This document shows, piece by piece, positions 52,518-63,353 of a stretch of DNA of 64,000 nucleotides; position 1 is the stretch's first letter; every line of letters begins with the position of its first letter. The notes beneath the pieces were generated by a model that saw only the letters and a program-made list of their open reading frames with translations, was not told the origin of the DNA and made no database searches. The translations under genes and the position numbers were made by a program. Location of the stretch: positions 1,116,001-1,180,000 of the forward strand of contig NZ_CP120367.1 in assembly GCF_029892045.1 (NCBI RefSeq), in the 5' to 3' direction. The DNA is from Sinorhizobium numidicum. GTDB taxonomy: Bacteria > Pseudomonadota > Alphaproteobacteria > Rhizobiales > Rhizobiaceae.

Positions 52518-53108
52518 ATGACCTACCGGGACCTCACCATCCTTGTGATTGACGAAAACGCCATCCGCGCCTCGATTATCGAGGAAGGTTTGCGTGAAGC
52601 CGGGCATGGCAAGGTCACGGTCATTCATGAAGTGCAGGGGGTCGCCCGGATCATCGAGACCCTTCGGCCGGACGTGATCGTCATCGATATCGAAAATCCC
52701 AACCGGGACATGATGGAGCACCTGTTCCAACTGACGCGAACCGTCGGCCGGCCGATCGCCATGTTCGTCGATCGCTCGGATACGGCGTCCATCGAGGCCG
52801 CCGTCGAGGCCGGCGTCTCCGCCTACATCGTCGACGGGCTCAAGAAAGAGCGCGTCAAGCCGATCCTCGACATGGCCGTCAGCCGCTTCAATGCCTTCAG
52901 CCGATTGCAGCGTGAACTCGCCGACGCGAAGTCCGCACTCGAAGAACGCAAGCTCGTCGAACGCGCCAAGGGCATTCTCATGAAAATGCGTGGGCTCTCC
53001 GAAGAGGAGGCATTCACGCTGCTGCGCCAGACCGCGATGAACGAGAAGAAGAAGATATCGGAGATCGCACAAAGCGTGGTGACCGCCGCCGGATTGCTGA
53101 TTCGATGA
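52518..53108 (+). CDS. nasT: Nitrate-responsive antiterminator NasT (ANTAR)
   Basis: A 196-residue response regulator: receiver domain (LTILVIDENAIRASIIEEGLREAGHGKVTVI, DVIVIDIENPNRD with the phosphoacceptor-type Asp), a coiled linker (NAFSRLQRELADAKSALEERKLVERAKGILM), and the C-terminal ANTAR RNA-binding domain (MRGLSEEEAFTLLRQTAMNEKKKISEIAQSVV). NasT binds twin hexaloop hairpins in leader RNA and lets polymerase pass a terminator; NasS holds it inactive without nitrate. Confidence 0.93.
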   Translation: MTYRDLTILVIDENAIRASIIEEGLREAGHGKVTVIHEVQGVARIIETLRPDVIVIDIENPNRDMMEHLFQLTRTVGRPIAMFVDRSDTASIEAAVEAGVSAYIVDGLKKERVKPILDMAVSRFNAFSRLQRELADAKSALEERKLVERAKGILMKMRGLSEEEAFTLLRQTAMNEKKKISEIAQSVVTAAGLLIR

Positions 53109-53154
53109 ACGACGCGCGCCGCCTTTGCCGGGCAGCACGTCGGGAGACACCGGA

Positions 53155-54459
53155 GTGAACATATTGACGGATATCGACAGGTTCAAAAGCAAGAAGCTCT
53201 CCGCTGGCGAGGCTCAGCCCGGGACGGTAAGTCTCGGTCATGAGGGTGCGCGCACGGTGCGCGCCGGCTTCATTCCGCTCGTCGATGCGGCCGTGTTGAT
53301 CGCGGCCGCGGAATTCGGCTTCGCGCAGAGAGAGGGCATCGCGCTCCATCTCGTGAAGGACGTCTCCTGGGCGAACGTCCGCGACCGTCTTGCCTTTCGC
53401 CAGTTCGACATCGCGCACATGCTCTCGCCGATGCCCGTCGCCGCGATGCTCGGCCTCGGCTCCAATCCGTCGCCAACGATCACTCCCTTTTCGCTTGGGC
53501 GCGGCGGCAATGCGATCACCTTGTCAACCCGGCTCTACGGTCAGATGCAAAACGAGGGCGAGTTGACGGGGAGAGAGGGCGCGCTTGCGAATGCGAGGGC
53601 CTTGGCGGCGGTCATTCGCCGCGCGCAGGCAGCCGGCAAACCGCGCCTGACGCTCGGCGTTACCTACCCCTTCTCGTCGCATAACTATGAATTTCGCTAC
53701 TGGCTCGCCGCCGGCGGCATCGATCCGGACCGCGACGTCAAGCTGGTGGTCGTGCCGCCGCCGATGACTTCCGATGCGTTGGCGGCCGGAGCCATCGACG
53801 GCTTCTGCGTCGGCGCCCCTTGGAACATGGTCGCCTCGGAGCGAGGCGTCGGCCGCATCGTCGCGACCAAGCAGGACATATGGCCATCCGCACCGGAAAA
53901 AGTGATCGGCATGCGGCCCGAATGGGCGGAGAACAACCCGGAAACCGTATCGCGGCTGATCGTTGCTCTGGACCGCGCTGCCCGCTGGTGCGACGCGCCG
54001 GAAAATCGCAACGCGCTCGCGGAGCTTCTCGCAGAACCGCGCTATGTGGCGGCACCCGTCGACATTATCCGCAGGGTTCTCGCGGGCGAATTCACCGTTG
54101 ATCCCCACGGCAATCAGCGGATCATCGAGAACTATTTTGTCTTTCACTCCGGCTTCGCCAACTTCCCGCGTCCTAGCCAAGCACTCTGGACCTACAGTCA
54201 AATGGTACGCTGGGGACAGGCGTCTCTGTCTGCGTCGGGAATGGAGGCATGCATCTCCGCTTATCGTCCTGATCTCTATCGTCAGGCACTCGGGGCGGAT
54301 GCAGCCGCGGCGGAGGCGGACATCGGCCCGCAAGGCACAGCAGCCGGCGACCACTTCCTGGACGGCCACATCTTCGATCCGAAGCGGATGGAGGAATATA
54401 TCGAGGCGTTCCCGGTCAAAGCGACAGGCCGCCCCCCGCTGTCGCTCGAAGATATCTGA
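53155..54459 (+). CDS. nasS: Nitrate sensor NasS (NrtA-like, without signal peptide)
   Basis: A 434-residue NrtA/CmpA-family protein without any signal peptide, so cytoplasmic: RAGFIPLVDAAVLIAAAEFGFAQREGI, DIAHMLSPMPVAAMLG, GVTYPFSSHNYEFRYWLAAGGIDPDRDVKLVVVPPPMT and GFCVGAPWNM. Without nitrate it binds NasT; with nitrate it lets it go. GTG 53155, with GGGAG eight bases ahead, is preferred to the TTG at 53125. It follows nasT by 46 bases. Confidence 0.88.
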   Translation: MNILTDIDRFKSKKLSAGEAQPGTVSLGHEGARTVRAGFIPLVDAAVLIAAAEFGFAQREGIALHLVKDVSWANVRDRLAFRQFDIAHMLSPMPVAAMLGLGSNPSPTITPFSLGRGGNAITLSTRLYGQMQNEGELTGREGALANARALAAVIRRAQAAGKPRLTLGVTYPFSSHNYEFRYWLAAGGIDPDRDVKLVVVPPPMTSDALAAGAIDGFCVGAPWNMVASERGVGRIVATKQDIWPSAPEKVIGMRPEWAENNPETVSRLIVALDRAARWCDAPENRNALAELLAEPRYVAAPVDIIRRVLAGEFTVDPHGNQRIIENYFVFHSGFANFPRPSQALWTYSQMVRWGQASLSASGMEACISAYRPDLYRQALGADAAAAEADIGPQGTAAGDHFLDGHIFDPKRMEEYIEAFPVKATGRPPLSLEDI

Positions 54460-54515: not shown

Positions 54516-54576
54516 GCACAATTATTCATCACACATCGGCAGTGGTTATTTATAAGGCACAATCGCGATATTGCGC
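54516..54576 (+). promoter_or_regulatory. Candidate NtrC enhancer sites
   Basis: GCACAAT-cgcgat-ATTGCGC at 54557-54576 is a near-perfect inverted repeat (one mismatch), close to the NtrC consensus (TGCAC ... GTGCA type). A second half-site GCACAAT lies at 54516-54522. Relative to the predicted start near 54646 these are at about -70 to -130, the usual place for enhancer sites. Confidence 0.5.
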
Positions 54577-54620: not shown

Positions 54621-54636
54621 TGGCACGCCGCTTGCT
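54621..54636 (+). promoter_or_regulatory. Sigma-54 (-24/-12) promoter of nrtA
   Basis: TGGCACGCCGCTTGCT matches the sigma-54 consensus TGGCACG-N4-TTGCW exactly, GG and GC being ten bases apart. Predicted transcription start near 54646, giving a leader of about 175 bases before nrtA. Confidence 0.8.
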
Positions 54637-54676
54637 TTTCTAAAATTGCTTCGGTCAACGGCGATTGAAGCGAGCT

Positions 54677-54697
54677 CAAGCGCCATAGAAGCGCTTG
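54677..54697 (+). promoter_or_regulatory. Candidate ANTAR-target hairpin in the nrtA leader
   Basis: CAAGCGC-catagaa-GCGCTTG forms a 7-bp stem. With one bulged C the loop becomes the hexanucleotide ATAGAA, which has the A1 and G4 of ANTAR-target loops. It lies in the transcribed leader after the sigma-54 start. The second hexaloop of the pair was not identified with confidence. Confidence 0.5.
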
Positions 54698-54732
54698 CCG
54701 AAGACACCGACGTCGCAAGGTCTTTGCCTCCA

Positions 54733-54780
54733 CGGGATTCCTCCCAATCCCGGAGCGCGATTTCCGAGCGGCGTTTTTTT
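54733..54780 (+). terminator. Leader terminator region before nrtA
   Basis: CGGGATT-cctccc-AATCCCG (7-bp stem, 54733-54752) and a weaker CGGAG ... TTCCG stem lie just before a run of seven T (54774-54780), 40 bases ahead of nrtA. This looks like an attenuator that NasT could overcome. The exact terminator stem is uncertain. Confidence 0.45.
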
Positions 54781-54820
54781 GTGTCCGGCTTCACCGGCCA
54801 CCAGCAGAGGGAACCTGCGC

Positions 54821-56110
54821 ATGACCAAGATTTCGACCGGCCTCACCCGCCGCAGCCTGCTGAAGACGACCGCGACGGCCGCGATGGTCGGAGCAATGAA
54901 AACGGCATTTCCATCGGGAGCCTTCGCCCAGACCGCCGGCCCGGAGACGGCAAAGGCCGTTCTCGGCTTCATCGCGCTCACCGATTCCGCCCCGCTGATC
55001 ATCGCCAAGGAAAAGGGGTTCTTCGACAAATACGGCATGACCGAAGTCGACGTTGTGAAGCAGGCCTCCTGGGGCACGACCCGTGACAACCTGGTGCTGG
55101 GCTCGGCCGGCGCCGGCATCGACGGCGCCCACATCCTGACGCCGATGCCCTATCTCATCTCCACCGGCAAGGTGACGCAGAACAATCAGCCGCTGCCGAT
55201 GGTCATCCTTGCCCGCCTCAATCTCGATGCCCAGGCGATCTCGGTAGGCTCCGCATATGCCGATCTGAAAGTGGGCCTCGACGCCTCCGTCTTGAAGGAA
55301 ACCTTTGCCAAGAAAAAGGCCGAAGGCGCCGCTGCAAAGGTGGCAATGACGTTCCCCGGCGGCACGCATGATCTCTGGATCCGCTACTGGCTTGCGGCCG
55401 GCGGCATCGACCCGGACAGCGACGTCGAAACCATTGTCGTCCCGCCGCCGCAGATGGTCGCCAACATGAAGGTCGGTACCATGGACTGTTTCTGCGTCGG
55501 GGAGCCGTGGAACGAGCAGCTCGTCAACCAAAAGATCGGCTACACCGCCGTCAACACCGCCGAGATCTGGGCCAAGCATCCGGAAAAATCCTTCGCGATG
55601 CGCGCCGACTGGGTGGAAAAGAACCCGCGCGCAGCAAAGGCGCTCATGATGGCCGTACAGGAAGCCGCGCAATGGTGCGACGACATGGCCAACAAGGACG
55701 AATTGGCAAAGCTCGTTGGCAAGCGCAGCTGGTTCAACGTGCCCGCCAAAGACATCGTCGATCGGCTCAAGGGCGAATACGACTACGGCAACGGCAAGGT
55801 CGTAGAGAACAGCCCGCATTTCATGAAATTCTGGCGCGACCACGCCTCCTATCCCTTCCAGAACCACGACGCGTGGTTCCTGACCGAGAACATCCGCTGG
55901 GGCAAGTTCGCGCCGGATACGGACATCAAGGGGCTGATAGCCAAGGTGAACCGCGAGGACATCTGGCGTGAGGCCGCAAAGGAGCTCGGCGTCTCCGACG
56001 TTCCGACCTCCACCTCGCGCGGCCCCGAGACCTTCTTCGATGGCAAGGTCTTCGATGCCGCCAACCCGGAAGCATATCTGAAGAGCCTCGCCATCAGCCG
56101 CATCGCCTGA
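54821..56110 (+). CDS. nrtA: Nitrate ABC transporter substrate-binding protein
   Basis: A 429-residue binding protein exported by the Tat route: MTKISTGLTRRSLLKTTATA with the twin Arg, cleavage probably after GAFAQ. The mature chain has KAVLGFIALTDSAPLIIAKEKGFF, SAGAGIDGAHILTPMPYLIS, KVAMTFPGGTHDLWIRYWLAAGGIDPDSDVETIVVPPPQM and DCFCVGEPWNEQL, the NrtA nitrate-site region. ATG 54821 has AGAGGGA ahead; the frame runs earlier but that part is leader. Paralogue of NasS. Confidence 0.93.
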   Translation: MTKISTGLTRRSLLKTTATAAMVGAMKTAFPSGAFAQTAGPETAKAVLGFIALTDSAPLIIAKEKGFFDKYGMTEVDVVKQASWGTTRDNLVLGSAGAGIDGAHILTPMPYLISTGKVTQNNQPLPMVILARLNLDAQAISVGSAYADLKVGLDASVLKETFAKKKAEGAAAKVAMTFPGGTHDLWIRYWLAAGGIDPDSDVETIVVPPPQMVANMKVGTMDCFCVGEPWNEQLVNQKIGYTAVNTAEIWAKHPEKSFAMRADWVEKNPRAAKALMMAVQEAAQWCDDMANKDELAKLVGKRSWFNVPAKDIVDRLKGEYDYGNGKVVENSPHFMKFWRDHASYPFQNHDAWFLTENIRWGKFAPDTDIKGLIAKVNREDIWREAAKELGVSDVPTSTSRGPETFFDGKVFDAANPEAYLKSLAISRIA

Positions 56111-56173
56111 CGCTTGTTACGGCAGCCGGCGGCTCGCCCGGCTGCCGTTCGACCCGAACCCTAGGAGAACGGC

Positions 56174-57067
56174 ATGTCCGTCACCAATCTCAAGCTCAAA
56201 CCGCAGACGACGCACCAGCCATCGGCGCACGTCATCGCCCTCACGCGCACAGTGAGGCCGAGCATCGATGGCCGCTTGTCGCGCCTTTTCTCCACGGCAG
56301 CCGCGAACCTCCTCCCGCTTCTCGTCACGTTGAGCCTTTTCCTTCTCGCCTGGCAGCTCATCTGTTCGTCGCCGGAGTCGAGCCTGCCGGCGCCAACGCG
56401 CGTCCTTGAGGAAAGCTGGGAACTGATCGTGCATCCCTTCTATATCGGCCAGGGGGTTGACCAAGGTCTGTTCTGGCACGTCTTTGCCAGCCTGCAGCGC
56501 GTGGCCCTCGGTTACGCCATGGCTGCGGTGGTCGGCATCGCCCTCGGTGTGCTGGTCGGTCAAAGCGCGCTGGCGATGCGCGGCCTCGATCCGATCTTCC
56601 AGGTGCTTCGCACGGTGCCGCCGCTCGCTTGGCTGCCGCTCTCGCTCGCAGCCTTCCAGGACGGCAATCCTTCGGCGATCTTCGTCATCTTCATCACGGC
56701 GATCTGGCCGATCATCATCAACACCGCGGTTGGTATCCGCAACATTCCGCAGGACTACCAGAACGTCGCCAAGGTGCTGCGGCTGAACGGCTTCGAGTAT
56801 TTCGGCAAGATCATGCTGCCGGCTGCCGCGCCGTACATCTTCACCGGCCTGCGGATCGGGATCGGCCTCTCGTGGCTCGCGATCGTTGCCGCCGAAATGC
56901 TGATTGGCGGCGTTGGAATCGGCTTCTTCATCTGGGATGCGTGGAACTCGTCGCTGATCAGCGACATCATCGTGGCGCTGATCTATGTCGGCATTGTCGG
57001 CTTTCTCCTCGACCGCGTCATCGCACTCATCGGCCGCGCCATCACCCGCGGCACGGCAAACGCTTGA
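56174..57067 (+). CDS. nrtB: Nitrate ABC transporter permease
   Basis: A 297-residue permease with about six helices (AANLLPLLVTLSLFLLAWQLI), RTVPPLAWLPLSLAAFQDGNPSAIFVIFITAIWPIIINTAVGIRNIPQDY (NrtB signature), and FGKIMLPAAAPYIFTGLRIGIGLSWLAIVAAEML (EAA loop region). GGAG precedes the ATG. It forms the channel as a homodimer with NrtD. Confidence 0.93.
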   Translation: MSVTNLKLKPQTTHQPSAHVIALTRTVRPSIDGRLSRLFSTAAANLLPLLVTLSLFLLAWQLICSSPESSLPAPTRVLEESWELIVHPFYIGQGVDQGLFWHVFASLQRVALGYAMAAVVGIALGVLVGQSALAMRGLDPIFQVLRTVPPLAWLPLSLAAFQDGNPSAIFVIFITAIWPIIINTAVGIRNIPQDYQNVAKVLRLNGFEYFGKIMLPAAAPYIFTGLRIGIGLSWLAIVAAEMLIGGVGIGFFIWDAWNSSLISDIIVALIYVGIVGFLLDRVIALIGRAITRGTANA

Positions 57068-57080
57068 AGAGGGAAGCCCC

Positions 57081-57881
57081 ATGACCAAGAGCTATCTTTC
57101 GCTTGAACTCCTGGACAAGAGCTTCGAACGCGGCGGCACGCGCACCGAGGTTCTCAAACAGATCTCCCTTACAGTCGACAAGGGCCAATTCATCTCGATC
57201 ATCGGCCACTCCGGCTGCGGCAAGTCGACACTCCTCAACATCGTCGCCGGCCTGACGCAGGCGACGACCGGTGTCGTCCTACTCGACGGCAAAGTGGTCG
57301 ACGAGCCGGGGCCGGACCGCGCGGTCGTCTTCCAGAACCACTCGCTGCTGCCGTGGCTGACGGTCTACGAGAACGTCCGGCTGGCCGTGGACAAGGTGTT
57401 TTCGAGGATCCGCAACAAGCAGGAGCGTCATGACTGGACGATGCGCAATCTCGAGCTCGTCCAGATGGCGCATGCGGCGGACAAGCGCCCCTCCGAAATC
57501 TCCGGCGGCATGAAGCAGCGCGTCGGCATTGCCCGGGCGCTCGCCATGGAACCGAAAGTGCTCCTGCTCGACGAGCCCTTCGGCGCGCTCGATGCGCTCA
57601 CGCGCGCCCATCTGCAGGACCAGGTCATGCAGATCCACGCCACGCTTGGCAACACGGTGCTGATGATCACGCACGATGTTGACGAGGCCGTCCTTCTCTC
57701 CGACCGGATCGTCATGATGACCAACGGCCCATCCGCCCGGATCGGAGAAATCCTCGATGTGCCGCTTGTACGCCCGCGGCGGCGCATCGAGCTCGCTTCC
57801 GACCGAACCTACCTGAAATGCCGCGAGGCGGTGCTCAAGTTCCTCTACGAGCGCCACCGCTTCGTCGAAGCTGCGGAGTGA
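57081..57881 (+). CDS. nrtD: Nitrate ABC transporter ATP-binding protein
   Basis: A 266-residue ATPase: Walker A GHSGCGKST, Q-loop VVFQNHSLLPWLTV, signature ISGGMKQRVGIARAL, Walker [12 protein letters not shown], and H-loop MITHDVDEA. It is of the SsuB/NrtD type. No NrtC (the fused ATPase with a binding domain found in cyanobacteria) is present. ATG 57081 has GAAGAGGGA before it. Confidence 0.93.
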   Translation: MTKSYLSLELLDKSFERGGTRTEVLKQISLTVDKGQFISIIGHSGCGKSTLLNIVAGLTQATTGVVLLDGKVVDEPGPDRAVVFQNHSLLPWLTVYENVRLAVDKVFSRIRNKQERHDWTMRNLELVQMAHAADKRPSEISGGMKQRVGIARALAMEPKVLLLDEPFGALDALTRAHLQDQVMQIHATLGNTVLMITHDVDEAVLLSDRIVMMTNGPSARIGEILDVPLVRPRRRIELASDRTYLKCREAVLKFLYERHRFVEAAE

Positions 57882-57887
57882 TCCCCA

Positions 57888-60350
57888 ATGGCTGAAAATA
57901 CCCCAGAAAAACTCGTCATCATCGGCAACGGCATGGCGCCAGGCCGCATGCTCGAAGAACTTTTCGAAAAAGCGCCCGGGCACTATGACGTCACGATCTT
58001 CAACGCCGAGCCGCGTGTCAACTACGACCGCATCCTGCTCTCGCCGGTGCTTTCCGGCGAAAAAACCTATGAGCAGATCGTCATTCATGGCGACGGCTGG
58101 TACATCCAGCACGGCATCACCCTTTATAAGGGCCATAAGATTGTTGCGATCGATCGGGACGCGAAGACGGTCACCTCCGACCATGGCGTTACGGAAAGCT
58201 ACGACAAGCTGGTGATCGCCACCGGTTCGGTGCCCTTCATTATTCCCGTTCCGGGTAAGGACCTGCGCGGCGTCATCACCTATCGCGATCTCGATGACGT
58301 GCAGGCGATGCTGCTTGCAGCCCAGTCGCGCGAAAAGGCGATCGTCATCGGTGGCGGTCTGCTCGGGCTCGAAGCGGCAGCCGGCCTAAAGGCGCGCGGC
58401 ATGGACGTCACCGTGCTGCACGTCATGCCGACCCTGATGGAGCGCCAGCTCGATCCAGCTGCCGGCTACCTGCTGCAGAAGGCGGTCGAGGAGCGCGGCA
58501 TCAAGGTCATTACCAAGGCGAATACCAAGCGGATCGTTGGCGAGAGCAAGGTCGAGGGTATCGAGCTCGATGACGGCCGGATCATTCCGGCGACATTGGT
58601 CGTGATGGCGGTCGGCATCAGGCCGAATGTCGGTCTTGCCAAGGAGGCGGGGCTCGCCATCAACCGCGGCATCGTCGTCGACGCCGGCATGCAGACGTCC
58701 GACGGGGATATCATGGCGCTCGGCGAGTGCGCCGAAGTCGGAGGCATGGTCTACGGCCTCGTCGCGCCGCTCTATGAAATGGCACGAGTTGCGGCCGCCC
58801 ACCTTGCCGGAGACCGCAGCGCCGCCTTCGTCCATTCCGATACGCCGACGAAGCTGAAGGTCACCGGGATCAACCTCTATTCGGTCGGCGATTTCGCCGA
58901 TGGCGAGGGGCGCGAGGAGATCGTGCTGCGCGATGCCACGGCCGGCATCTACAAGCGGCTCGTCCTCAAGGACAACCGCATCATCGGCACGGTGCTCTAC
59001 GGCGAGACCGGCGACGGCGCTTGGTTCAACGATCTGTTGAAGCGCGGCACCGACATCTCCGAAATGCGCGACACTCTGATTTTCGGCCAGGCCTATCAGG
59101 GAGGATCCCCGCTGGACCCTATGGCGGCCGTTGCAGCCTTGCCGGATGATGCGGAAATCTGCGGCTGCAACGGCGTCTGCAAGGGCAAGATCGTCGGGGC
59201 GATTACCGGCAAGGGGCTGACTTCGCTTGACGATGTGCGCGCCCACACGAAAGCATCGGCCTCCTGCGGCTCCTGCACCGGTCTCGTCGAGCAACTGATG
59301 TCGCTGACCCTCGGCGATGCCTACAATCCCGCCGCCGTGCAGCCGATGTGCACCTGTACCGAGCTCGGCCATGACGACGTGCGCCGTCTGATCAAGGCGA
59401 AGAAGCTGAAGACCATCCCCGCCGTCATGCAGGAACTCGAGTGGAAGACCTCCTGCGGCTGCGCCAAATGTCGCCCGGCGCTCAACTACTATCTCGTCTG
59501 CGACTGGCCGGACGAATATGCCGACGACTACCAATCGCGCTTCATCAATGAACGCGTCCACGCCAACATCCAGAAGGACGGCACCTATTCGGTCGTACCG
59601 CGCATGTGGGGCGGGGTCACCAATTCCAAGGAACTGCGCGCCATCGCCGATGTCGTCGACAAGTTCAACGTGCCGCTGGTCAAGGTCACCGGCGGCCAGC
59701 GTATCGACCTGCTCGGCATCGAGAAGGAGGATCTGCCCGCTGTCTGGGCCGATCTCGGCCAGGCCGGCTTCGTCTCCGGCCAAGCCTACGCCAAGGGCCT
59801 TAGAACGGTGAAGACTTGCGTCGGCTCCCAATGGTGCCGTTTCGGCACGCAGGACTCGACCGGTCTCGGCATCCGCATCGAGAAGTTCATGTGGGGTTCT
59901 TGGACGCCAGCAAAGGTGAAGATGGCCGTCTCCGGCTGCCCACGCAACTGTGCCGAAGCGACCTGCAAGGACGTCGGCGTCATCTGCGTCGATTCCGGCT
60001 ACGAGATCCATTTCGCCGGGGCCGCCGGCCTTGACATCAAGGGCACCGAAGTTCTCGGGCTGGTCAAGACCGAGGACGAGGCGCTGGAGCATATCGTGGC
60101 GCTGACGCAGATGTATCGCGAGCAGGCCCGCTATCTCGAACGCATCTACAAATGGGCAAAACGCGTCGGCCTCGACGAGATCCGCCGGCAGATCATGGAG
60201 GATGCCGAGAAGCGCAAGACCTATTTCGACCGCTTCGTCTTCAGCCAGAAGTTCGCTCAGGTCGATCCCTGGTCGGAGCGTGTCTCTGGCAAGGACAAAC
60301 ATGAGTTCCGGCCGATGGCGACGGTCGAGTTCAACCAGGCAGCGGAGTGA
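57888..60350 (+). CDS. nirB: Assimilatory nitrite reductase [NAD(P)H] large subunit
   Basis: An 820-residue enzyme: FAD domain (VIIGNGMAPGRMLEEL), NADH domain (AIVIGGGLLGLEAAAGL), two BFD-like [2Fe-2S] cysteine groups (CGCNGVCKGK near residue 424 with SCGSCTGL near 461, and later CTCTELG with SCGCAKC), then the siroheme/[4Fe-4S] module (TCVGSQWCRFG near 642 and SGCPRNCAEATCKD near 683). It reduces nitrite to ammonium with six electrons. Seven bases after nrtD. Confidence 0.95.
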   Translation: MAENTPEKLVIIGNGMAPGRMLEELFEKAPGHYDVTIFNAEPRVNYDRILLSPVLSGEKTYEQIVIHGDGWYIQHGITLYKGHKIVAIDRDAKTVTSDHGVTESYDKLVIATGSVPFIIPVPGKDLRGVITYRDLDDVQAMLLAAQSREKAIVIGGGLLGLEAAAGLKARGMDVTVLHVMPTLMERQLDPAAGYLLQKAVEERGIKVITKANTKRIVGESKVEGIELDDGRIIPATLVVMAVGIRPNVGLAKEAGLAINRGIVVDAGMQTSDGDIMALGECAEVGGMVYGLVAPLYEMARVAAAHLAGDRSAAFVHSDTPTKLKVTGINLYSVGDFADGEGREEIVLRDATAGIYKRLVLKDNRIIGTVLYGETGDGAWFNDLLKRGTDISEMRDTLIFGQAYQGGSPLDPMAAVAALPDDAEICGCNGVCKGKIVGAITGKGLTSLDDVRAHTKASASCGSCTGLVEQLMSLTLGDAYNPAAVQPMCTCTELGHDDVRRLIKAKKLKTIPAVMQELEWKTSCGCAKCRPALNYYLVCDWPDEYADDYQSRFINERVHANIQKDGTYSVVPRMWGGVTNSKELRAIADVVDKFNVPLVKVTGGQRIDLLGIEKEDLPAVWADLGQAGFVSGQAYAKGLRTVKTCVGSQWCRFGTQDSTGLGIRIEKFMWGSWTPAKVKMAVSGCPRNCAEATCKDVGVICVDSGYEIHFAGAAGLDIKGTEVLGLVKTEDEALEHIVALTQMYREQARYLERIYKWAKRVGLDEIRRQIMEDAEKRKTYFDRFVFSQKFAQVDPWSERVSGKDKHEFRPMATVEFNQAAE

Positions 60351-60354
60351 AACG

Positions 60355-60693
60355 ATGACGATGAACTGGATTGCTATTGGCGACATCAGCGAAATCCCGC
60401 TGCGTGGCGCGCGTTGCGTCAAGACGCCGATCGGCAAGATCGCCGTCTTCCGGACCGCCGAAAACGACGTCTTCGCGATCGAGGACCACTGCCCGCACAA
60501 AGGCGGGCCGCTTTCCCAAGGCATCGTGCATGGCACTGCCGTCACCTGCCCGCTGCACAATTGGGTCATTTCGCTCGAAACAGGCAAGGCCCTCGGCGCC
60601 GACCAAGGCGAGGTGCGCACCATCCCGGTGCGCAACGACAAGGGTGCGCTTTTCATCGCGCTTGAAAGCCTAGCATTGGCAGCGGCGGAATAA
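60355..60693 (+). CDS. nirD: Nitrite reductase small subunit (Rieske-like)
   Basis: A 112-residue Rieske-fold subunit. The ligand motif CPHKGGPLSQG ... CPLHNW is present in full (Cys-x-His and Cys-x2-His), so it likely binds a [2Fe-2S] cluster; many NirD proteins have lost it. It partners NirB, five bases upstream. ATG 60355 (or 60361) follows GGAG. Confidence 0.93.
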   Translation: MTMNWIAIGDISEIPLRGARCVKTPIGKIAVFRTAENDVFAIEDHCPHKGGPLSQGIVHGTAVTCPLHNWVISLETGKALGADQGEVRTIPVRNDKGALFIALESLALAAAE

Positions 60694-60695
60694 AG

Positions 60696-63353
60696 ATGGC
60701 GTGCGAGGTCAAGACCACCTGCCCCTATTGCGGCGTCGGCTGCGGTGTCATCGCCCGTGTGGACGATGACGGCGCGGTTAGCGTCAAGGGTGATCCCGAG
60801 CATCCGGCCAATTTCGGCCGGCTCTGCTCCAAGGGCTCGGCGCTTGCCGAGACCCTCGATCTCGACGGCCGCCTCCTCCATCCGGAGATCGGCGGCCGCC
60901 GTGCAGGCTGGAACGAAGCGCTTGAGCTCGTGGCCGAGCGTTTTTTGCAAAGCATCGCCGAGCACGGCCCGGATTCGGTTGCCTTCTACGTGTCGGGGCA
61001 ATTGCTGACCGAAGATTACTACGTCGCCAACAAGCTGATGAAAGGGTTCATCGGCTCGGCCAATATCGACACCAATTCGCGCCTTTGCATGTCGTCCTCG
61101 GTCGCCGGCCACCGCCGCGCCTTCGGCTCCGATACGGTGCCGGGCATGTATGAGGACCTGGAGCTGGCCGATCTCGTCGTGCTAACGGGCTCCAACCTCG
61201 CCTGGTGCCATCCGGTCCTCTATCAGCGCCTTGCGGCGGCAAAGGCCAGCCGTCCGGAAATGAAGGTGGTCGTCATCGATCCGCGCCAGACGATGACGGC
61301 GGACATCGCCGATATGCATCTGGCAATCGCGCCCGATGGGGACGTTGCCCTCTTCAACGGCCTGCTTGTCCATCTGACAACCAGCGGCGCCATCGATCAG
61401 AATTATGTTTCGGCACACACAACAGGGTTTGCCGAGGCCTTTGCCGCCGCCTCTGCCCTGAACCTCGATGGACTTTCGGCAGCAACCGGCCTTGCGCAAA
61501 AGCAGTTGCGCGATTTCTTCCGGCTGTTCGAAACGACGGAAAAGGTCGTCACCTGCTACAGCCAGGGCGTCAACCAGTCATCCGCCGGAACGGACAAGGT
61601 CAACGCCATCATCAACTGTCACTTGGCAACCGGCCGTATCGGCCGGCCGGGCATGGGGCCGTTCTCGCTGACCGGTCAGCCCAATGCCATGGGCGGACGT
61701 GAAGTGGGCGGGCTTGCGAACATGCTTGCCGCCCATATGGATATCGAAAAATCACTGCACCGAGATCAGGTGCGACGCTTCTGGGGTGCGCCAGCGGTGG
61801 CGAGCAAGCCGGGCCTCAAGGCAGTCGACATGTTCCGAGCCGTTGCCGACGGGCGGATCAAGGCGCTCTGGATCATGGCGACGAACCCGGTCGTTTCCAT
61901 GCCCGATGCCGACGTGGTCGAAGCGGCACTCAAGGCCTGCCCCTTCGTCGTCGTCTCCGACATTTTGCGCGACACCGACACGACCCGTCATGCGCACGTG
62001 CTGCTGCCATCGCTCGGCTGGGGCGAGAAGGACGGCACCGTCACCAATTCCGAACGACGTATCTCGCGTCAGCGCGCCTTTCTCGATGCGCCGGAAGAGG
62101 CGAGCGCCGACTGGTGGCAGCTGGCGGAAGTCGCTCGGCGGATGGGCTTTTCGGAGGCTTTCGGCCATGCGTCTTCAGCCGAAATCTTCGCCGAACACGC
62201 CGCGCTTTCCGGCTTCGAGAATGATGGCCGCCGCGATTTCGATATCGGTGCTCATGCGTCGATCGATCGAGCGGCCTATGACTGTCTTGAGCCTTTCCAG
62301 TGGCCGCAGCCTAAGGAAACGGCGCCGCAGGAAGGACGCTTCTTCGCCGACGGCCGCTTCTATCATCCGGACGGCCGCGCTTGCTTTGTCCCGGTGCAGG
62401 CGCCGAAGGCCAGACTCGCCGATGACGCCCTCCCTTTCACGCTCAACACCGGAAGGGTGCGCGACCACTGGCATACAATGACCCGCACCGGAAAGAGCGC
62501 GCGGCTCTCCGCCCACATCGCTGAGCCCTTCGTCGAAATTCATCCGAGCGACGCACAGACAATCGGCGTAGCGGATGCCGACCTCGTGCGAATCGAGAGC
62601 CCCTGTGGTACGGTGATCGTCCGCGCGCTCGTCACCGCGCGCCAGGCGCCGGGCAACCTCTTCGCGGCTATGCACTGGAACGATCAGTTCGCCTCGAAAG
62701 CGCGCATCGACGCACTGGTGCCGCCGATCACCGATCCTTTCTCCGGCCAACCCGCCTCGAAAAACGTCGCGGTAAAGGCCGCCCGTTTCGCAGCCCGGAC
62801 CTACGGCTTCGCTGTGTCGACGGCAAAGCCCCGTAAGCTTCAAGCAGTCTATTGGGCGATCGCGAAGGCCGAGGCCGGATGGCGAGCGGAGCTCGCCTTC
62901 GATGGCGCACAGGACAATTGGATCGACTGGTGCCGGCAAGCCTTCTCCATTCCGGGCGGCATCGAGCCGATCGGCTATACCGACCGGCAATCAGGCGAGT
63001 TCCGCCTCGCCTTCTTCGAAGGTGAGAGGCTTTTTGCCGCCCTTTTCCTTTCGCCCCGCCCCGTCGCCGTCGCGCGCAGTTGGGCCGTGTCGCAGCTCGC
63101 GGTTCCACATGCCGATCTCAGCAAACGCTTCGCCGTCGCCGCCGGCCGTCCCGGTGCCGACAAGCCGGATCCGGGCGCCACCGTCTGTTCGTGCTTCAGC
63201 GTCGGCGTCAACCAGATCACCGCCGCCATCCGCGACGGATGCCACAGTGTCGAAGCGGTCGGCCAGAGGCTCAGTGCCGGCACCAATTGCGGCTCCTGCC
63301 GCTCCGAAATCAGGGGGATCATCAATGGATGTCTTGCCGCGGCCGCTGAGTGA
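60696..63353 (+). CDS. nasA: Assimilatory nitrate reductase catalytic subunit
   Basis: An 885-residue molybdopterin (bis-MGD) oxidoreductase: [4Fe-4S] ligands C9, C12, C16 and C44 (TCPYCGVGC, RLCSKG), NSRLCMSSSVAGHRRAFGSD, GSNLAWCHPVLYQR and ATNPVVSMPD, then molydopterin dinucleotide domain (NTGRVRDHWHTMTRTGKS). The last about 60 residues add a BFD-like [2Fe-2S] domain (TVCSCFSVGVNQITAAI ... NCGSCRSEI). It reduces nitrate to nitrite in the cytoplasm. Two bases after nirD. The C-terminal domain suggests direct coupling to a small reductase or to NirB. Confidence 0.94.
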   Translation: MACEVKTTCPYCGVGCGVIARVDDDGAVSVKGDPEHPANFGRLCSKGSALAETLDLDGRLLHPEIGGRRAGWNEALELVAERFLQSIAEHGPDSVAFYVSGQLLTEDYYVANKLMKGFIGSANIDTNSRLCMSSSVAGHRRAFGSDTVPGMYEDLELADLVVLTGSNLAWCHPVLYQRLAAAKASRPEMKVVVIDPRQTMTADIADMHLAIAPDGDVALFNGLLVHLTTSGAIDQNYVSAHTTGFAEAFAAASALNLDGLSAATGLAQKQLRDFFRLFETTEKVVTCYSQGVNQSSAGTDKVNAIINCHLATGRIGRPGMGPFSLTGQPNAMGGREVGGLANMLAAHMDIEKSLHRDQVRRFWGAPAVASKPGLKAVDMFRAVADGRIKALWIMATNPVVSMPDADVVEAALKACPFVVVSDILRDTDTTRHAHVLLPSLGWGEKDGTVTNSERRISRQRAFLDAPEEASADWWQLAEVARRMGFSEAFGHASSAEIFAEHAALSGFENDGRRDFDIGAHASIDRAAYDCLEPFQWPQPKETAPQEGRFFADGRFYHPDGRACFVPVQAPKARLADDALPFTLNTGRVRDHWHTMTRTGKSARLSAHIAEPFVEIHPSDAQTIGVADADLVRIESPCGTVIVRALVTARQAPGNLFAAMHWNDQFASKARIDALVPPITDPFSGQPASKNVAVKAARFAARTYGFAVSTAKPRKLQAVYWAIAKAEAGWRAELAFDGAQDNWIDWCRQAFSIPGGIEPIGYTDRQSGEFRLAFFEGERLFAALFLSPRPVAVARSWAVSQLAVPHADLSKRFAVAAGRPGADKPDPGATVCSCFSVGVNQITAAIRDGCHSVEAVGQRLSAGTNCGSCRSEIRGIINGCLAAAAE

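Follow-up and report, generated by a model that had tools for sequence, protein, structure and literature searches.

A predicted NasT-type antitermination leader with a candidate bridging hairpin upstream of the nrtABC-nirBD-nasA genes of Sinorhizobium numidicum

In Sinorhizobium numidicum, nasT and nasS are followed on the same strand by a row of nrt, nir and nas genes, and the intergenic region between nasS and nrtA (361 bp) raises the question of whether its RNA is a leader on which NasT acts, and, if so, which of its hairpins NasT would bind. We analysed the surrounding stretch of 64,000 nucleotides, here called the window. A NasT-type antitermination leader directly after the sigma-54 start, as the earlier note had proposed, is a well-supported prediction from the sequence; its anatomy stood up in comparison with other leaders, but the hairpin then named as the NasT target was the wrong one, and the hexaloops that fit lie on either side of it.

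Locus, promoter and nitrogen control signals

The genes and the upstream elements are located as follows:

52518..53108, forward strand: nasT, a protein with a receiver-like and an ANTAR domain (Pfam ANTAR 75.1 bits, Response_reg 39.4 bits)
53125..54459, forward strand: nasS, an NrtA-like nitrate/nitrite sensor of the NMT1_2 family
54516..54521, forward strand: GCACAA box, a candidate activator site at about -131
54621..54635, forward strand: sigma-54 promoter TGGCAC-N5-TTGC, TGGCACGCCGCTTGC, a -24/-12 site with zero mismatches
54821..63353, forward strand: nrtA, nrtB, nrtC, nirB, nirD and nasA, the regulated genes downstream of nasT and nasS

NasT is the sole ANTAR protein of the host genome (E <= 0.001), and its gene and nasS adjoin the leader, as noted earlier. 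The name nasS was given from the position after nasT and the resemblance to substrate-binding proteins named NasS in the literature; nrtA (ATG at 54821) and nasA were named by place and family, with no model above its cut-off. In the window, nrtABC-nirBD-nasA form one gene row behind a single leader. In S. meliloti and S. fredii (L212, L213 and L214) nrtABC lies apart from nirBD-nasA, and each has its own leader of the same form.

The sigma-54 start of the earlier note was borne out. TGGCAY-N5-TTGC has one exact match in the window, at 54621-54635, while a search allowing one mismatch gave 8 matches, which is not above the shuffle level. The GG and GC of the -24 and -12 elements, by which sigma-54 promoters are recognised, are present in TGGCACGCCGCTTGC at the correct spacing, and from the usual sigma-54 spacing transcription is predicted to start at about 54647.

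An NtrC equivalog (701 bits) is encoded in the host genome. Upstream of the promoter, GCAC[AT]A was found in 43 of the 57 leaders described below, clustering at -127 to -131, -159 to -162 and -169 to -174. Relative to the predicted start, GCACAA boxes (in the window at 54516 and 54557) fall at about -129, -161 and -172, like helically phased activator sites. Agreement with the published NtrC consensus was weak: sites matching at least 9 of 11 positions numbered 35 in 27 of the 57 leaders, against 15.2 in shuffled and 14 in reversed sequences, and the window reaches 8 of 11 at best. Dyad patterns for NtrC occurred little above the shuffle level.

Fold and conservation of the leader

The leader RNA (54647-54788) is more stable than all 200 of its shuffles (z -4.19), and the predicted fold consists of P1, H2 and a long terminator hairpin followed by a run of seven T; thus the further stems and the T7 just before nrtA that had been noted earlier are both present. 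The elements are:

54646..54673, forward strand: P1, an 11-bp hairpin with hexaloop AACGGC (54657-54662)
54677..54697, forward strand: H2, a spacer hairpin of 7 bp with a 7-nt loop, CAUAGAA
54703..54714, forward strand: P2, mini-hairpin GAC[ACCGAC]GUC, a candidate antiterminator; GAC[ANNGRC]GUC is present in 57/57 leaders
54709..54716, forward strand: terminator 5′ arm GACGUCGC, which overlaps P2 and pairs with 54768-54775
54768..54775, forward strand: terminator 3′ arm GCGGCGUU, with T7 at 54774-54780

P1 and P2 had been missed when only one clear hexaloop was reported. In each hexaloop A1 and G4 are present, with C:G as the closing pair. P2 and the terminator have 54709-54714 in common, and GCGGCGTT with the terminator 5′ arm was found in most aligned leaders. 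A simple-terminator scan missed the leader terminator, whose loop exceeds the length that the scan allows. Within the host genome the P1-P2 pattern matched once, at the nrtA leader only.

Comparison was made with 80 nrtA loci, 56 of which combine an exact promoter with a T-run further on and make up, with the window, a set of 57 leaders. P1 and P2 were found in 57/57, a result to be read as none failing, for the search patterns already held A1 and G4. The P1 loop is AACGGC in 39 leaders, AATGGC in 11, AACGAA in 5, and AATGAC and AACGAC in 1 each. TTGC is followed 20-22 nt on by the A1 of this loop, and GAC[ANNGRC]GUC begins 42-53 nt beyond that A1; the P2 loop varies at its second and third letters, with A1 and G4 constant. 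Among the 24 loci left out, lacking the exact promoter plus T-run, four (L017, L019, L022 and L074) retain P1 and P2; with these included, the alignment comprises 61 leaders, the window among them. L020, L021 and L023 were omitted from the alignment as P2 is divergent or, in L021, doubtful. The other 17 have no such P1/P2 before nrtA.

Two variant forms were observed among these loci. In 16 of the 17 (L027, L030, L032, L033, L035, L040, L049, L051, L055, L058, L066, L070-L072, L075 and L077), which are of Bradyrhizobium type, TGGCAY-N5-TTGA, with GA in place of GC at -12, is followed 18-19 nt on by GACGCC[ANNGNN]GCCGT, an A1/G4 hexaloop whose stem contains a C-C mismatch; no P2 or terminator has so far been recognised upstream of nrtA in these loci. 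The Aurantimonadaceae-type loci L017, L019 and L022 keep P1 and P2 and have no sigma-54 site, CATTTGGACTTT and then CAAA being found instead.

The search for covarying bases in homologous leaders, which the earlier note had suggested, succeeded for P1 (changes on both sides in 9 of 11 pairs) and for H2 (see below) but not for P2, whose three pairs are invariant across the 61 aligned leaders, so that covariation neither supports nor opposes P2 pairing there. C:G closes both loops in each of the 60 distinct rows of the alignment. A compensated change is seen at one terminator pair in L001, and two of the divergent leaders have a paired P2 in other letters (AGC[AACGCC]GCU in L020, GGC[AACGAC]GCC in L023). 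Folding of the growing transcript gave P2 at ends 54717, 54722, 54760 and 54770 and a different pairing at 54730 and 54745; from end 54776 on, the terminator replaces P2. Forcing P2 to form costs 12.8 kcal/mol relative to the terminator fold (-53.2 versus -66.0), a deficit that in such a model would be expected of a hairpin needing a protein. Mutual exclusion of P2 and terminator is also the design described in the cited text of PMC3369931.

The leader was recovered by our covariance models. Model R2 was built from 36 leaders, with no record titled Sinorhizobium or Ensifer among them; it scores the window leader at 67.4 bits (E 1.8e-15), the next place at 16.5 bits, and leaders of S. meliloti and of S. 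fredii at 54.7-60 bits. Model R1, of 61 leaders, scores the window leader at 73.7 bits, a partly circular score as the window is included, and the next place in the host genome at 22.3 bits (E 0.02). Over 297 genomes of the order, R1 matched in 52 with E <= 0.01 and in 10, the host genome included, at 39.9 bits or more, a cut chosen once the drop to 32 bits had been seen; besides the host genome, at least one of these ten contributed a sequence to the model. All ten carry nasT, against 134 of the 297 overall. The weaker matches that were inspected appeared by eye to be mostly chance-like, L130 being a short-linker leader and L131 a promoter with P1.

In the Rfam search no family reached its gathering threshold in the window. 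RF03032 (narK RNA) scored 26 bits (E 0.0048; gathering 43.2 bits), and its alignment covers P1 and P2 with a 24-nt insertion in the window at H2. The RF03032 consensus includes CGACAAAGACGUCGC as well as a -24/-12 site and a hairpin whose loop is AACGGC; it differs from the window in having no H2, and Rfam draws one hairpin. Across the order RF03032 matched 22 of 297 genomes with E <= 0.01, none above gathering, and the six best all carry nasT. In several RF03032 matches (L091, L092, L093, L095 and L102; the window match is 54622-54716) P1 and P2 are both present, separated by a short linker. Thus the narK RNA looks like a sigma-54 promoter with an ANTAR dual-hexaloop leader.

The middle hairpin and the length of the linker

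The strong hairpin that the earlier note had placed at 54677-54697 was confirmed (-9.8 kcal/mol; 0/200 shuffles as stable). In a thinned alignment (36 of the 61 leaders, chosen by the author, with no rows titled Sinorhizobium or Ensifer), 7/7 pairs of H2 show changes on both sides and 84.9% of cells are paired. The covariation score is 0.472 against 0.201 in shuffles, none of 500 reaching it, and 0.03-0.13 in versions slid out of register, the better control, as kinship alone may lift covariation above shuffles. An earlier 61-row alignment, with H2 out of register, gave 60.7% of cells paired and changes on both sides in 5 of 7 pairs. All 61 linkers fold into a hairpin of at least 5 pairs, and 49 are among the best 5% of their own shuffles. 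Hybrid linkers, with halves from different leaders, average -8.1 kcal/mol versus -10.4 for the native ones. Against H2 as a bridge stand the 12 of 61 linkers outside the best 5% and the 25% of hybrids that reach the native mean.

Two A1/G4 hexaloop hairpins, the second overlapping an intrinsic terminator, are likewise reported for Enterococcus eut (EutV), Klebsiella nasF (NasR) and Pseudomonas amiE (AmiR) in the cited portions of PMC3369931, PMC7496416 and PMC3369936. NasR SELEX, as given in the cited part of PMC7496416, selected an A1/G4 hexaloop closed by C:G, which P1 and P2 fit. The window leader differs from these in having a covarying hairpin between P1 and P2 and a linker of 29 nt, against 5-12 nt in eut. 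Over the 61 leaders the linker, by the rule used, is 27-39 nt, 55 of them having 27-31 nt; its part outside the fold is 8 nt in the window and 8-12 nt in 40 of the 61. Natural eut linkers are given as 5-12 nt, with reduced induction at 3 or 14 nt (PMC3369931, in part), and a 20-nt extension abolished antitermination (PMC8934654, in part); by analogy, this limit may also be valid for NasT. A linker of 29 nt agrees with the variable linker between hairpins worded in the cited text of PMC3369931, but lies outside the 2-25 nt of the curation filter quoted from PMC8164766; since it is filled by H2, we class the leader as a variant.

To place this linker among others, 140 author-chosen nasT regions from genomes of the phylum, a sample not independent by descent, were scanned on both strands for P1 and P2 together with an overlapping terminator. 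Matches were found in 66 regions (73 matches, 69 distinct), and the same regions reversed gave none. The strict criteria found no match in the other 74 regions, and they miss leaders with a hairpin in the linker (bridged leaders) whose P1 has 4 pairs, such as L125-L127. The 69 distinct leaders fall into 48 with linkers of 0-10 nt and 21 with linkers of 22-76 nt, with none at 11-21 nt. Of the 21 long linkers, 13 are more stable than about 95% of shuffles; the 8 that do not are a further point against the bridge, and by eye four of them (L199, L203, L210 and L298) have an extra A1/G4 hairpin in the linker, which would make it short. L023, outside the survey, has a linker of 62 nt. C:G closes both loops in 64 of the 69 leaders; it was not required by the survey but aided the choice among candidates at one terminator.

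Proposed mechanism and alternatives

The sequence, its conservation and covariation, the overlap of P2 with the terminator and the presence of NasT as sole ANTAR protein are observed; on this basis we consider the region probably to be a nitrate-responsive three-hairpin ANTAR antitermination leader, in which H2 is a bridge rather than a NasT target. The sigma-54 polymerase would start at about 54647 and make P1 at the extreme 5′ end, next H2, and next the short P2. With no free NasT, P2 would yield as the 3′ arm (54768-54775) emerges, the terminator would form, and transcription would stop before nrtA. With nitrate, NasS would free NasT, which by sitting on the A1/G4 hexaloops of P1 and P2 would keep GACGUC in P2, so that the polymerase reads through. 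H2 would reduce the 29-nt linker to 8 unpaired nt and one helix, holding P1 and P2 close.

Release of NasT by nitrate, its RNA binding and read-through are proposed here by analogy with Paracoccus nasA and Bradyrhizobium nosR, where a NasT-NasS pair serves the same signal (cited portions of PMC3795266, PMC5424462 and PMC6759348): in Paracoccus NasT binds a leader and nitrate releases NasT from NasS (PMC3795266), and for Bradyrhizobium NasT and a leader hairpin of nosR are described (PMC6759348). In the one Paracoccus denitrificans record compared (L216), we recognise by eye a P1 of GGCGC[AACGGC]GCGCC, an 11-nt linker and CGC[AATGAT]GCG; a survey-type scan of this record reported no leader. The mechanism is already known, and the bridge and the gap in linker length are the new part; we found no description of a three-hairpin bridged ANTAR leader in the passages of open-licence papers that were searched.

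The AND gate of the earlier note, with initiation by NtrC and elongation by NasT, is plausible, and combinations of Ntr control with ANTAR antitermination (Klebsiella nas) and of NtrC with NasTS (P. denitrificans) are on record in the cited part of PMC5424462. A leader of this form also precedes nrtA in S. meliloti 1021 (on pSymA) and nirB in S. meliloti BL225C; in S. fredii SMH12 one lies between nasTS and nirB. In S. meliloti, according to the cited text of PMC6616083, nirB/narB rise about 1000-fold on ammonium removal and nitrate is "only slightly" inducing; NasS/NasT homologues are named there as candidates and the regulation of nirB/narB as "not known yet". The small nitrate effect counts against our reading. 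By analogy the nitrate gate may be leaky in these leaders too, which leaves the strict AND gate a conjecture. The leader could be a leaky attenuator that trims expression or answers nitrate weakly, with NtrC and sigma-54 regulating nearly everything, and the same ammonium response favours this, as do the rise of nrtABC and nirBD in S. meliloti on glutamate when nitrogen is limiting (PMC3596328, in part) and the nas transcript of P. denitrificans on glutamate (PMC5424462, in part). We regard it as unlikely, though the most credible of the alternatives: the two hexaloops, and the overlap of P2 with the terminator, are retained in 57/57 leaders, as if a NasT response were under selection.

The other alternatives concern single hairpins. 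Being retained while its letters change, and lying between P1 and P2 in transcription order, H2 might slow the polymerase so that NasT loads on P1 before P2 and the terminator are made; this we find slightly less likely still, for 48 of the 69 surveyed leaders have linkers of 0-10 nt, many without a hairpin there, and the gap at 11-21 nt is explained by a spatial reading and not by pausing. That P1 alone matters, with P2 a mere terminator 5′ arm, is suggested by the shortness (3 pairs) and invariance of P2, which also weigh against our preferred reading, as does the report that in P. denitrificans HI alone was essential while mutation of HII hardly mattered (PMC5424462, in part). It is nevertheless improbable, since positions 2 and 3 of the P2 loop vary while A1 and G4 stay, the P2 stems of L020 and L023 change jointly with the terminator, and C:G closes both loops in most surveyed leaders. 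Finally, H2 itself had been taken as an A1/G4 hexaloop. Its loop can be drawn as AUAGAA if a C is bulged, but the predicted loop has 7 nt, A1/G4 is not conserved, and no A1/G4 hexaloop on at least 4 uninterrupted pairs lies between P1 and P2 in any of the 57 leaders; H2 is very improbable as a binding site for NasT.

Given a three-hairpin leader with H2 as bridge, it is possible, though we put it a little below even, that bridged ANTAR leaders form a distinct class in which an H2-type hairpin serves as a ruler that sets where the two hexaloops lie, and long linkers are tolerated only with a hairpin inside. Linker length is a reported spatial limit on ANTAR antitermination; bridged leaders exceed it in nucleotides but may respect it in space, and are thus a natural experiment on how an ANTAR dimer engages two loops. 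If the ruler reading is true, they would test whether the dimer grips the two loops at once or one after the other, and searches restricted to short linkers would miss NasT targets in Alphaproteobacteria. The bridged leader also suggests an identity for the narK RNA family of Rfam, and as the same leader form is present in S. meliloti, the question is testable in a model rhizobium.
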